Shown here: piece after piece, positions 40,292-51,250 of the stretch
Layout of the letters: each line of letters starts with the position of its first letter
Numbering within the stretch: position 1 is the stretch's first letter
Source: Candidatus Tiamatella incendiivivens
GTDB taxonomy: Archaea > Thermoproteota > Thermoprotei_A > Sulfolobales > Acidilobaceae
Length of the DNA stretch: 64,000 bases
Direction of reading: 5' to 3'
Assembly (NCBI GenBank): GCA_015522635.1
Contig: WALW01000007.1
Span: forward strand, 62,001-126,000
Notes under the pieces: model-generated
Databases searched by the model: none
Told to the model about the DNA's origin: nothing
Seen by the model: only the letters and a program-made list of their open reading frames with translations
Program-made: the position numbers and the translations under genes

Positions 40292-40992
40292 TCCCTCTTA
40301 TACCTGGCGTACACCATTGCGTGATCCTTATCGAACGGCTCGAGGTGTACTACATCCATTATCTCGAACCCACCTTCCCGCAGTGTCTGGACCTCACGCT
40401 TGTAAACTTCACTGGGCTCCATAGTTACATCAACGCTTCTGGCCTTTATCGCTAACAACAGGTATCCATTGTCTTCTAAGAAGAACTTAGCGTTCCTCAC
40501 TACTATAGCTGCCTGCTCAGGCTGAGCTATATCTGCATATAGACCGTTTACTCCTTCAACTAGGTGCCTATATTTTTCTGGGAACCGGGCATCACCCAGT
40601 ATTGGATATAGATTCTCTCTGGCTTCAACGACTAGTAGGAATTCTCTCATGACTCTCGGAGCAAATTCTACACCGTAAAGTCTACCTTCAGCTCCAATTA
40701 TATCACTGATGTGGCTGGGTGTTGTACCGCTTGCAGCTCCAAGGTAGAGGATTCGATCCCCCTCGATTATTGGAAGTTCCTCTATTCCCTTAAGTATGCC
40801 TGCTGCGAGCTTTGACCTATATGCATTCCATTCTCTATATTCTACACCATCTATTATGTGAAGTCTCTCACCATATACTCTATTACCCGGTACTAGGTTC
40901 TTCGTTGCAAGCCTCTCGCTGCCATCTTCCAGTTCTATAATGTATACACCATTATATTTAGGGTGTTCTTTTACACCTATTGCTTCAACCAT
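40288..40992 (-). CDS. flpA: Fibrillarin-like rRNA/tRNA 2'-O-methyltransferase
   Basis: About 234 residues. SAM motif ILYLGAASGTTPSHIS, acidic YGVEFAPRVMREFL, catalytic Asp in GLYADIAQPEQA and Lys in LLAIKARSVDVT are typical. It is the catalytic subunit of box C/D sRNPs, recruited by Nop5. ATG at 40992 is chosen because AGGAGGTG lies six bases upstream. It follows nop5 directly. The same window holds candidate C/D sRNAs. Confidence 0.96.
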   Translation of the reverse strand: MVEAIGVKEHPKYNGVYIIELEDGSERLATKNLVPGNRVYGERLHIIDGVEYREWNAYRSKLAAGILKGIEELPIIEGDRILYLGAASGTTPSHISDIIGAEGRLYGVEFAPRVMREFLLVVEARENLYPILGDARFPEKYRHLVEGVNGLYADIAQPEQAAIVVRNAKFFLEDNGYLLLAIKARSVDVTMEPSEVYKREVQTLREGGFEIMDVVHLEPFDKDHAMVYARYKRE

Positions 40993-40997
40993 TTCAT

Positions 40998-42275
40998 TCA
41001 CCTCCTACTTCCTTTCTTACTTCTCTTACGCCCTCTACCATAGCCTCCTTTCCTAGGTCTACGAGGGAATCTTGAAGGCTTGGGCTTCTCTTCCTCCTTC
41101 TTCCTTGCAGGTGGTTTTGCATAGATAGTCTTGATCTCTTCAACACGTTTCCCTAATTCTTCGTTGAGTCTATCTCCAACGTATCTTCCCGTGAATGCAT
41201 CTATTTTCGCAGCTATTGCTAGTTTAGAAGCTAAAGCTCTGGCCACTTTCCCCCTCTGCCATCTCGGACTCTTATGTATATCTGGGTATTGGAATATTAT
41301 TCCATGTTTTGGTGGTCTACCGCCTGTTCTCAGTGATCTAAATAAAGCTTTTTCAGCTCCAAGCACTTGTATTGTACTGGCTGGCATTCTGGCTAGCCTG
41401 TCGAGTGATCCTGCTAGGCTTATTAGTCTGGCTCCTAGCAGAGCTCCTACTAGAGCGGTTACATTAGGCGCTACCTCCTTCATGACTGAAGCTATGTATC
41501 CGGCTAGATTGTTTCTAAGCTGATATAAATCGTAGGTAATTCTTGCTAGAGTCTGGATAGCATCGATATCAAAGTCTGATAGGTCTGCTCCAATACTCTT
41601 TTTAGCAGTCTCGGCTATTTTCGCTGCATCGCCCTTATTGAATCCTAGTTTAACCAGGTTATCCACTGTTATATTGTCTCTCGAACCTAATTGAGAAACT
41701 ATTCTCACATACTTCTCATGATCCTCTACTAAATCATCTAGTTCTGGATAGTGTACAGAATACCATTCCCTAAGCCTGGCAACAAACAAGTTTATAGTTT
41801 TATCAATGTCATCAGTAGCCCTTATAGCTTGGGCTGCGAGTTGATCTCTCTTCTGTGCATGAGTCCTCAGCTTCCTCCTCGTATACTCGGATGTCGCCTT
41901 GTGCATGAAGTCCATTACTGTTGCAATGGACTCGAGGAACCCTGTTTCAACGGCCAGATCGAATAATCCTATTCTTTTTCCCGCTAGAATGGGGTGTCCT
42001 TCTACATACTCTGCTGTAAAGCCTTTCTTATTGACTTTAGGGACAATGGCCTCGTCTTCCACATATACCTTATCGACACCCTTCTCTTTCAATACGTCAA
42101 GCAGTTGCTCAAGTGCTGAGGTAAGTTCACCCTCCTCCAATTGGAGAGCCTGATGTACTGTTTCGTCAATGTCATTTGGGGGATGGCTATATGCGATTAA
42201 ACCCCCATCACTGGAGAACGCATAGCTCCCCAGTACAGAATCAAGTATATATGCCTCCAATTCTCCGATCACCAC
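40998..42275 (-). CDS. nop5: Box C/D sRNP scaffold protein Nop5 (Nop56/58)
   Basis: 425 residues. N-terminal fibrillarin-binding domain, a central coiled coil (about 130-240), and the Nop domain with GSLDRLARMPASTIQVLGAEKA and the conserved KHGIIFQYP segment; the tail is Lys/Arg rich. It bridges L7Ae and the guide RNA to fibrillarin. GTG start at 42275, with a TATA box 24 bp upstream, so the transcript is probably leaderless. Confidence 0.96.
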   Translation of the reverse strand: MVIGELEAYILDSVLGSYAFSSDGGLIAYSHPPNDIDETVHQALQLEEGELTSALEQLLDVLKEKGVDKVYVEDEAIVPKVNKKGFTAEYVEGHPILAGKRIGLFDLAVETGFLESIATVMDFMHKATSEYTRRKLRTHAQKRDQLAAQAIRATDDIDKTINLFVARLREWYSVHYPELDDLVEDHEKYVRIVSQLGSRDNITVDNLVKLGFNKGDAAKIAETAKKSIGADLSDFDIDAIQTLARITYDLYQLRNNLAGYIASVMKEVAPNVTALVGALLGARLISLAGSLDRLARMPASTIQVLGAEKALFRSLRTGGRPPKHGIIFQYPDIHKSPRWQRGKVARALASKLAIAAKIDAFTGRYVGDRLNEELGKRVEEIKTIYAKPPARKKEEEKPKPSRFPRRPRKGGYGRGRKRSKKGSRR

Positions 42276-47419: not shown

Positions 47420-47746
47420 ATGAAATGGATGGGTAGCGATTTCTGGGGAGGATATGGACGTGGAAGAGGATGGGGAGGAATGGGACCTTGGAACGAGGGA
47501 CCGTCAAATGACCCTGTCCTTGAAAGAGTTCCCGCTGGTCGTAAGGTAAGAGTAAAGTATATTCTAGGGGGATGGAATGCTAATAGTAGGCTTGCATCTA
47601 TGGGAATAATTCAGGGTGCAGAGATAGAAGTAGTGAAAAACGATTTGAATTATCCTTGGACTCCTATTATAGTTAGAGTTAATGGCGTTGAGATCGCTCT
47701 TGGTAGAGGCATAGCTTCCAGGGTTATTGTAGAGAATACGGAGTGA
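47420..47746 (+). CDS. feoA: FeoA-domain protein with Gly/Trp-rich N-terminus
   Basis: 108 residues. The FeoA beta-barrel (about 35-105) has LERVPAGRKVRVKYI and GIIQGAEIEVV. An N-terminal extension of about 30 residues is rich in Gly, Trp and Arg. FeoA is an SH3-like helper of the ferrous iron permease. It overlaps feoB by four bases (GTGA), so the two are coupled. Confidence 0.88.
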   Translation: MKWMGSDFWGGYGRGRGWGGMGPWNEGPSNDPVLERVPAGRKVRVKYILGGWNANSRLASMGIIQGAEIEVVKNDLNYPWTPIIVRVNGVEIALGRGIASRVIVENTE

Positions 47747-49923
47747 TCGTCTCCTGTCTTTCCTGCTGTTACCGGGAGAGGTGTATTTTTCTATTGGAAG
47801 GTGAAAGGGACTCCAAGGATCAAACATACCATGTTAATATACTTGAAGGCTGTACAGTCAAAGTAGTTCTCTTGGGTCCTCCTAATACAGGGAAATCTAC
47901 TTTATTCAATATTCTTACAGGAGGAAATGTATTAGTAGCGAACTGGCCTGGAGTAACTGTGGATGTAGAGATCGGTAAGATTAAAACACTTAGGGGAACA
48001 ATATGTATAGCGGATTTGCCTGGAACTTATAGTTTATACCCTACTACACTAGAAGAAAAAATAGCCGAGGCATTCATACTGGACAATAAACCTGACTGGA
48101 TAGCGGTTCTAATAGACGCGACGACACCGGAGAAAAGCCTGGGACTTCTGATCCAAGCCATAGAGGCTTTTGGAAGTAAGGTTATAGGAATTCTTACAAA
48201 GAAGGCGGTAATGCATGGTCTAGGAATCCACATTGACGTTGAAGGTCTAAAGAGAGAGTTGGGTGTGAATATAATTGAGACCTCGGCTTTAGAGGGGATA
48301 GGTTTAGAAGAATTAAAAGAAGCCATATCTATTAAACCTACGGAGAAAAGCGGGTTTACTTCTTTAAAAATAAACTATGGTCCTTTAGAAGCTTATATAA
48401 ACATGCTTGAAGGTAATACAGACTTAATAAATTTTTCAGCGGATTATTGCTTATCGACGAGATATACAGCAATATCCCTCCTAATGAAGGACCTTGTAAT
48501 ATTCGATAAAATACCAAATAACCTGAAGGCTAGAGTTCAAGAACTAGAAGAGGAAGCATCCAAAGCTTTCTCGTCTGGGTTAAGTCAAATAATATTCGAA
48601 AAACGATACCAGTTTGTTGACCAGCTTGCAAGCAAACATATTGTTAGAACAAAGGAATCAATAATCATGGATAGAATAGATAAGTTACTAACACATCCTA
48701 TATTAGGACCGATTAACAGTTTACTTTTAATCTTTATAGTCTTCCTAGCTGTTTTCTCTGTGAACACCGGTTTCCCACTAAATGTAATCTTAGATTACAC
48801 AGGTTATCATAATGCAGCAGCCATAGTCGAAGAGTACAGTCTTACCTCTCTTCTAGGAGAATTCTTCGATTGGTTAGCAACAAGCGTATATAATTATATA
48901 GGTGGTCAAGGTGGAGACTTACTGGGGAACGGGATAATAGGTGGAGTAGGAGCAGTACTCAGCTTCGTCCCACTAATTCTTATGGTCTACTTCTTTCTCG
49001 GAATACTAGAAGATACGGGTGTTATTTCCCGTATTGCTTCCAGTCTACACCCCTTCTTAGAGCCGTTCGGGTTAACAGGACGAAGTGTCTTCCCACTATT
49101 TATATCGCTAGGGTGTAATGTACCAGGAGTTTATGCAACGCGAGCCTCGAGTATAGAGGAGAGAGTTAAATCTCTATGGGCAGTGCCTTTCATACCTTGT
49201 CAAGCTAGACTAGTAGTTATACTAGCCTTCGCCGATGCCTTCTTCCACGATCCTATAACAAAAACTCTAGCTGTCCTTGGACTTTACGGTGCAGGTATAT
49301 TTGCTGCATTATTTACAAGCGTTATAGCAAGTGTTTTCTTCAAAGGGAAACTGGGTGTAGAAAGAAGAACCCCTTTAGTCCTAGAATTACCTTATCTTCA
49401 TAAACCATCATGGAAAGTCGTTTACTGGATAACACGTGATAATACCCTCCACTTTATTAAAAAGGCTGGAACAGTCATCTTTGTGATGAGTATAATAACT
49501 TGGACAATCGTTAACTACGGACCTCAAGGATACACAGGAACTATAAGCGGGTCTTTTGGGGAATTAATAGGTGAGAAACTCAGCTTTATCTTACATCCTC
49601 TAAACATAAAAGGCATCTACGCAAATATTCTAACTTTATCACTTATTGTAGGTTTAGTTGCCAAGGAAGTCGTACTATCAACCATTGTACAAGCCACAAG
49701 CATCGGAGATCCGATAAAAGCTGTTGCATCTCTTGGACTGACTCATGCTCAAGCATTCGGTTTCCTCTTGATTGTGACGTTATACTTTCCATGCATTGCA
49801 ACACTAGCAGCTATGTATACGGAGACTAGGAAAATGTCCTATATACTCCTTTTCGCATTATATAGTATTGCACTAGCTTTATCAGCAGGATATATAGGAT
49901 ATCTACTTCACATTATAATTTAG
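47743..49923 (+). CDS. feoB: Ferrous iron transport protein B
   Basis: 726 residues. The N-terminal G domain has GPPNTGKST (about 45-53), VANWPGVTV, DLPGTYSLYP and LTKK in place of the usual NKxD; then the membrane part with two Gate motifs (about nine to ten helices, including PLFISLGCNVPGVYATR and VPFIPCQARLVV). An extra N-terminal tail carries Cys at about 5, 8, 9 and 14 (CLSCCYRERC), possibly a metal or Fe-S site in place of FeoC. GTG start. It imports Fe(II). Confidence 0.93.
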   Translation: MIVSCLSCCYRERCIFLLEGERDSKDQTYHVNILEGCTVKVVLLGPPNTGKSTLFNILTGGNVLVANWPGVTVDVEIGKIKTLRGTICIADLPGTYSLYPTTLEEKIAEAFILDNKPDWIAVLIDATTPEKSLGLLIQAIEAFGSKVIGILTKKAVMHGLGIHIDVEGLKRELGVNIIETSALEGIGLEELKEAISIKPTEKSGFTSLKINYGPLEAYINMLEGNTDLINFSADYCLSTRYTAISLLMKDLVIFDKIPNNLKARVQELEEEASKAFSSGLSQIIFEKRYQFVDQLASKHIVRTKESIIMDRIDKLLTHPILGPINSLLLIFIVFLAVFSVNTGFPLNVILDYTGYHNAAAIVEEYSLTSLLGEFFDWLATSVYNYIGGQGGDLLGNGIIGGVGAVLSFVPLILMVYFFLGILEDTGVISRIASSLHPFLEPFGLTGRSVFPLFISLGCNVPGVYATRASSIEERVKSLWAVPFIPCQARLVVILAFADAFFHDPITKTLAVLGLYGAGIFAALFTSVIASVFFKGKLGVERRTPLVLELPYLHKPSWKVVYWITRDNTLHFIKKAGTVIFVMSIITWTIVNYGPQGYTGTISGSFGELIGEKLSFILHPLNIKGIYANILTLSLIVGLVAKEVVLSTIVQATSIGDPIKAVASLGLTHAQAFGFLLIVTLYFPCIATLAAMYTETRKMSYILLFALYSIALALSAGYIGYLLHIII

Positions 49924-49950: not shown

Positions 49951-50012
49951 GGTGGGGATGAGGACACTTGCCCCCTGGGATTGATGAAGACATTACCGCG
50001 AACCGACCCACC
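49951..50012 (+). ncRNA. Candidate dual-guide box C/D sRNA, both guides against 16S helix 18
   Basis: GGTGGG (49951-49956) and CCCACC (50007-50012) form a perfect terminal stem, with GGGATGA (49955-49961) as the C-like box, CTGG (49975-49978) as D', TTGATGA (49981-49987) as C' and CCGA (50003-50006) as D. The D' guide ACTTGCCCC (about 49966-49974) is complementary to GGGGCAAGU, and the D guide ATTACCGCG (49992-50000) to CGCGGUAAU. As I recall, both target strings lie within about 30 nt in crenarchaeal 16S rRNA around the 530 loop. Two independent guides hitting one region is strong support, although C and D boxes are degenerate. Confidence 0.65.
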
Positions 50013-50032: not shown

Positions 50033-51250
50033 GTGGATTGCTTGAAGAATAAACCTGTTTTCATAGAATGGGATAAAGCATCTAGGATAACTAGCATGCC
50101 AATATTGGTGAATAAACTGGGATACAAAACCGAGCCTCCTGATTGCATAAAATGGCTTCATGGCACATATACGATAATAGGAGAATGCCCCGGCAAAGCC
50201 GGTCAGCTAGTCACTGACCAACCGGCTCCTCCCACTAAAGATTGTGTTTTTAATATAGGCCAAAACATTAGTTCTGCATGGCTTATCAAGTTAGCTCTAC
50301 AGGAATCCCTCCTTATGGAGAAGGAGGGATTCAATGTATGGCTTAATACCTCAATATACACAAGTGTGAACGACTTTAAGGTTTCATCTAGACCTTTCCC
50401 AGGCTCTGTTTGCGGGAGCGACGGAACCTGTTATGGAACCCCTAATATTCGTCCTCTTACAGCTGGATCATCTAGGCCAGTATATTCCATTGAGATGAAG
50501 GTTTCTAGGAAGACTATGAGGATTAAACCAATAGAGAATTATCGATCTGTTTGGATGGGTAGAAAAGGTTATGCCCGAATAGATAATAAGGAATGGACAG
50601 GGTATATAGATCGCAATAGAATTACAGGTTTATTCTATTTAAAAAATTCAAGTATACTTGAATTCGAGACAAACTACTACCGACCAAGACTGACATTCCT
50701 TCATCCATATAGCTTTGTGCATGGAAGAATGGAGGAAGGAGAGAGTATAATATCACCTGTAATCTCGCTTGAGGGGGTAGATGGAAGGGTACTAACTATA
50801 GTTTCACCCTCTCCCGTAAGGGCTTCACTAAACAACGGTATCCTTAGAGTAGAATCATTCAAGGACGAATATCCTATACTCGTCTCGGAAAACCCTCCTT
50901 TGGCGAGTTTGAAGGGCCTATATAATTCAATGGCCCCTGTAGTTGAGTTAGACGGATATACCACTAAAAGGATCAAGCTACCCATCGCCTCGCTAAGAGT
51001 TGGATGTGGTTTAATCGATTACATAGACTTTAATAAGGATGAACTGTTGCTGAACCTGTATAACCCCGGAGAGAATGTTTGTCTAGGAGAGTTAAAGTTT
51101 ACAGGAGTTGTTTCTGAAGCATCTCAGGATAACAATATATTAGAACCTCTCTATGACAGAGTGAGGATAAGCCTACCAAGTCATTATTATGGACAGGTTA
51201 AAGTGAGAATTAAGAGAAGTTTATCTTTCCTATTGAGAATGAGAGAATGA
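50033..51250 (+). CDS. Uncharacterised 405-residue protein
   Basis: No family recognised. It has no signal peptide or membrane helix. The N-terminal 160 residues hold several Cys residues (in IGECPG, TKDCVF, SVCGSDGTCYG) and a Pro-rich stretch; the C-terminal part looks rich in beta strands (TNYYRPRLTFLHPYSFVHG, LRVGCGLIDYIDF). An ordered NIGQNISSAWLIKLALQES suggests a folded domain, possibly a carbohydrate-binding or hydrolase fold, but this is a guess. GTG start at 50033 after GAGTGGT, 20 bp after the sRNA candidate. Normal base composition. Confidence 0.65.
   Translation: MDCLKNKPVFIEWDKASRITSMPILVNKLGYKTEPPDCIKWLHGTYTIIGECPGKAGQLVTDQPAPPTKDCVFNIGQNISSAWLIKLALQESLLMEKEGFNVWLNTSIYTSVNDFKVSSRPFPGSVCGSDGTCYGTPNIRPLTAGSSRPVYSIEMKVSRKTMRIKPIENYRSVWMGRKGYARIDNKEWTGYIDRNRITGLFYLKNSSILEFETNYYRPRLTFLHPYSFVHGRMEEGESIISPVISLEGVDGRVLTIVSPSPVRASLNNGILRVESFKDEYPILVSENPPLASLKGLYNSMAPVVELDGYTTKRIKLPIASLRVGCGLIDYIDFNKDELLLNLYNPGENVCLGELKFTGVVSEASQDNNILEPLYDRVRISLPSHYYGQVKVRIKRSLSFLLRMRE

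Follow-up and report, generated by a model that had tools for sequence, protein, structure and literature searches.

The window analysed here, a stretch of 64,000 nucleotides of Candidatus Tiamatella incendiivivens, carries on its forward strand a small RNA gene which extends, from terminal stem to terminal stem, over positions 49951-50012. The gene is located in a gap of 109 nt between feoB (47743-49923, forward strand; Pfam FeoB_N, FeoB_C and Gate), which lies upstream and outside the RNA, and an open reading frame of 405 aa on the same strand (50033-51250), downstream, that displays no Pfam match; in the sister genome G001 the sRNA is found between the same two neighbors. The boxes of a C/D sRNA are present in order, C (ATGAGGA), D' (GGGA), C' (ATGAAGA) and D (CCGA), together with a C/D kink-turn, and the own-genome copy scores 71.8 bits against a covariance model derived from 52 of the BLASTN homologues. 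Two protein components of the corresponding RNP, fibrillarin (40297-40974, reverse strand, E 5e-103) and Nop5 (41139-41816, reverse strand, E 7e-75), are encoded in the same genome. Their genes lie side by side in the window (40297-41816, reverse strand), about 8 kb from the sRNA.

The terminal stem is formed by GGTGGG (49951-49956) and CCCACC (50007-50012), as stated in the original prediction, and the corresponding columns covary in the 52 homologues. In fact, all 8 stem pairs of the homologue alignment show double-sided changes. The cells altered on both sides number 105, a value that the shuffles put at 56.8 and that none of 500 of them reaches. The structure covariation score amounts to 0.409, well above that of the shuffles (0.183) and of slid controls (no higher than 0.245). 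The stems of 64 homologues also set the register of the C box. When ATGANGA is taken as the C box, with a standard 3-nt bulge, the stem directly adjoins the D box in most homologues, and an abutting stem of at least 3 bp (mostly 3-9 bp) is found in 43 of the 64, whereas GGGATGA, the C box read originally, leaves an abutting stem of 0 bp in 46 of the 64 and is ruled out. The C box is ATGAGGA (49958-49964), preceded by a bulged G (49957), and the kink-turn bulge G-A-U has the normal size of 3 nt. With such an ordinary bulge, the suggestion that an odd C box might alter L7Ae binding is unsupported. Position 5 of the C box is a G and position 2 of the D box is a C, both departing from U, and the pair that they form after the G.A pairs is G-C instead of U-U; in relatives the same pair is A-U, G-U, C-G or a mismatch, and U-U is found in just 4 of 129 variants. 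The thermodynamic fold of the sRNA is unremarkable (z -0.64), as expected of a protein-dependent kink-turn RNA, and being uninformative it was dropped as evidence for the sRNA.

Between the C and D boxes, the D' guide CACTTGCCCCCT (49965-49976), with its core CTTGCCCCC at 49967-49975, is followed by the degenerate D' box GGGA (49977-49980). The D' box had been misregistered before; GGGA occupies the position homologous to the D' box of relatives, based on the homologue alignment and tallies in which CAGA is the most frequent form, the other reading being CTGG at 49975-49978. A 3-nt D'-C' loop, TTG, precedes the C' box ATGAAGA (49984-49990), in a register common to most of the 129 homologous variants. 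The D guide CATTACCGCGAA (49991-50002) has its core ATTACCGCG at 49992-50000, and 125 of these variants show a 2-nt spacing between guide and D box. The D box itself, CCGA (50003-50006), reads CTGA in G001.

Apart from the degeneracy of its C and D' boxes, nothing speaks for a chance match in intergenic DNA, a reading that we regard as exceedingly improbable and that conservation already refutes, as more than 100 genomes carry the sRNA, its stem covaries and both guides are complementary to the organism's own 16S rRNA. When both strands of the 64-kb window were scanned with a C/D grammar, drawn up after the family was seen, the only candidate was this sRNA, and none arose in 60 resamples generated by an order-1 Markov model of the window. 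Likewise, a 9-nt antisense match to 16S is found in just 1.4% of the 12-mers of the window.

The alignment of the guides to the organism's own 16S, which the original prediction had called for, was carried out with the single 16S gene of this genome (G000:C14, L001). The D' core establishes 9 consecutive Watson-Crick pairs with positions 464-472, to which T49976 adds one G-U pair with G463, and the D core establishes 9 consecutive Watson-Crick pairs with positions 488-496, both guides displaying the approximately nine or more base pairs to rRNA, with the plus-5 base covered, that characterize a guide. Each target, GGGGGGCAAG (463-472) and CGCGGTAAT (488-496), occurs once in this 16S, and no second site with nine pairs for either guide is found elsewhere in it. 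These unique best sites, one in each arm of helix 18 around position 530, are 24 nt apart, within the roughly 30 nt that had been anticipated. The proposed complementarity to helix 18 holds for the 9 Watson-Crick pairs of each guide but not for the first base of ACTTGCCCC, which is unpaired because the target in the organism's own 16S is GGGGCAAGA and not the GGGGCAAGU given originally. With the boxes in order, a conserved stem and both guides pairing with the own 16S, the original reading of the element as a box C/D double-guide sRNA is borne out. Both GGGGGGCAAG and CGCGGTAAT are present in 7 of 7 16S sequences of relatives (7 of 29 relatives with a 16S in the assembly). The 16S of genome G054 (L110/L098) diverges right after CCCCGCGAG, reading CCGAGCCGGAGCTCGGCGCG, and the match there is longer and weaker; this divergence beside helix 18 possibly represents an rRNA intron or insertion.

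Positions of the own 16S were converted to E. coli numbers by a gapless alignment to the E. coli sequence, and we take own G467, C469 and C490 to be E. coli G505, C507 and C528, respectively. In E. coli, the 530 pseudoknot joins 505-507 with 524-526. According to the rule of five, the D guide with the D box CCGA is predicted to direct modification of own C490, that is C528, as originally proposed, and C528 is also the residue indicated in the 125 of 129 variants that keep the 2-nt spacing to the D box. The D' guide, in turn, is predicted to direct modification of own G467, or G505, when GGGA is taken as the D' box, while CTGG would instead give C507. The site of the D' guide (G505 or C507) is less certain than that of the D guide because GGGA is degenerate, and the G at the first position of the D' box could weaken methylation there. 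C507 had been the residue predicted at first, and placing the D' box at the homologous position shifts it to G505, in agreement with the published call for Ignicoccus.

This published call concerns sR206 of Ignicoccus hospitalis, an sRNA from the RNA-seq set of that species (PMC4644070), for which a D target at 505, plus a mismatched contact at 16S G36, and a D' target at G482 are listed (Dennis et al. 2015, Table 3, PMC4644070). In the numbering of these authors E. coli G530 is 507 (PMC4644070), therefore 505 corresponds to C528 and 482 to G505, and own C490 and G467 map to sR206 positions 505 and 482. The I. hospitalis copy recovered by the same covariance model (L158) leads, by the rule of five, to 16S G482 and C505, and we infer that L158 is sR206, the match being made via the predicted sites and not via the published sR206 sequence. 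Although both RNAs have the same two guides, predicted sites and box register, the C box of the I. hospitalis RNA is ATGACAA, compared with ATGAGGA here, and the terminal stem and D'-C' loop also differ; for the window guide, no G36-type contact of at least 7 bp was found in the own 16S. Judging from the shared guides and predicted sites, the window RNA is probably a new orthologue of the described double-guide sRNA sR206. The novelty implied by the original prediction is reduced because sR206 had already been published, and what is new here is the added member, the corrected anatomy and the breadth of conservation, the two sites having been reported for sR206. Four other RNAs, Tte sR114, Pca sR28, Sac sR115 and Iho sR21, are likewise box C/D double guides directed at helix 18 and the 530 loop (Fig. 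3b, PMC4644070), with a D' guide to A535 and a D guide to G515 (E. coli numbering); an identity with these guides is ruled out, since the targets differ, and the window sRNA is a different RNA. The Rfam families sR23, sR43 and snoPyro_CD, which are alike in general C/D architecture but unlike in their guides, score 18.6, 16.8 and 10.5 bits, respectively, against a gathering cut-off of 45 bits, and no Rfam family covers the window sRNA. A term search of two papers on crenarchaeal ribosome cryo-EM (PMC11698992 and PMC10516650) yielded no mention of 2'-O-methylation in helix 18.

The sRNA is widespread among relatives. Among 197 genomes of the order, 53 yield BLASTN homologues. The search of related genomes that had been proposed, run with the covariance model on 214 genomes of the order, located the sRNA in 112. 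In family f11, the genomes of 2-3 Mb that were examined gave no match to the model. A pattern scan of named genomes returned 60 records, nearly all of them belonging to Desulfurococcales, Acidilobaceae, Pyrodictiaceae or Ignisphaera. Beyond the order, the phylum contains weaker relatives, among them those of 12 genomes of family f20. The f20 sequences that were examined (L146-L148 and other matches) keep the D' guide and display a D guide lacking one A (ATTCCGCGG), from which the rule of five still leads to C528. Directly upstream of several homologues (L014, L013, L015, L007, L023 and others of the Ignisphaera-like family f3, and L010 of f10) a second C/D-like sRNA was observed, with guides around CTTGGCCG and GGTAGCC, which ends almost at the start of the helix-18 sRNA and forms a tandem pair with it; an exact pattern finds no copy of this partner in the genome of the window.

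Based on the dual complementarity of 9 bp, the conserved boxes, the covarying stem and the presence of fibrillarin and Nop5 genes in the genome, we are highly confident that the element is real, conserved and functional-looking, and that it most probably represents a box C/D methylation-guide sRNA aimed at both arms of helix 18. The transcript is expected to form a C/D kink-turn at its ends and a C'/D' kink-loop in its interior, to which, assuming expression and RNP assembly, L7Ae, Nop5 and fibrillarin would bind. On the 5' side of helix 18, the D' guide would then pair with the equivalent of E. coli 501-510, a stretch that contains pseudoknot strand 505-507, and the D guide would pair with E. 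coli 526-534, allowing fibrillarin to 2'-O-methylate C528 through the D guide and G505 through the D' guide (or, in other species, neighboring positions). Since both guides bind one helix, the RNP would probably also prevent the two strands of the pseudoknot from joining before their modification. A role in the folding of the decoding centre, previously put forward in the literature for this RNA, is a reasonable hypothesis.

How far each guide serves methylation may be considered in light of the variation in the family. In the 129 variants, the distance from the D' core CTTGCCCCC to the first NNGA is 2 nt in 90, 1 nt in 20 (the spacing of the window copy, giving G505) and 0 nt in 19, which moves the predicted site over 504, 505 and 506, a drift that is only indicative, given that the pattern by which the variants were partly gathered demanded the cores, and that the first NNGA was counted as the D' box. 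That the core is kept while the predicted base moves would fit an sRNA acting mainly as a folding chaperone, in which selection would maintain the pairing with the two strands of the 530 pseudoknot, and methylation would come second, at the D' site if not elsewhere. Chaperone roles were indeed proposed for double guides by Dennis et al. (2015), in whose table sR206 appears and who describe helix 18 as a methylation hotspot (PMC4644070). Nevertheless, the exact spacing of the D guide to C528 in 125 of 129 variants favors site-specific methylation there, and with the drift of the D' site being only indicative we regard a predominantly chaperone function as rather unlikely. A similarly doubtful explanation is that the D guide alone directs methylation, at C528, the D' half serving as a binding anchor with a box, GGGA, too degenerate to work; the D' boxes of the family are far more variable than its D boxes, but degenerate internal boxes are common among archaeal sRNAs, and in the orthologue sR206 both guides are predicted to work (PMC4644070).

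Returning to the guide sRNA aimed at both arms of helix 18, we may tentatively hypothesize, at low confidence, that selection acts, across Desulfurococcales-type archaea, on a clamp holding both 530 pseudoknot strands, with C528 as a fixed methylation site and the D' half acting as an anchor with a drifting one. Taken as a single locus, the sRNA described here is ordinary. At the level of the order, roughly half of the genomes sampled retain a decoding-centre double guide known from the RNA-seq list of one species, and such wide retention is unusual, because most archaeal guides turn over fast. The chaperone idea becomes testable by comparing species with and without the sRNA and, if the clamp proves true, this sRNA would act throughout the order as a chaperone in the folding of the decoding centre.
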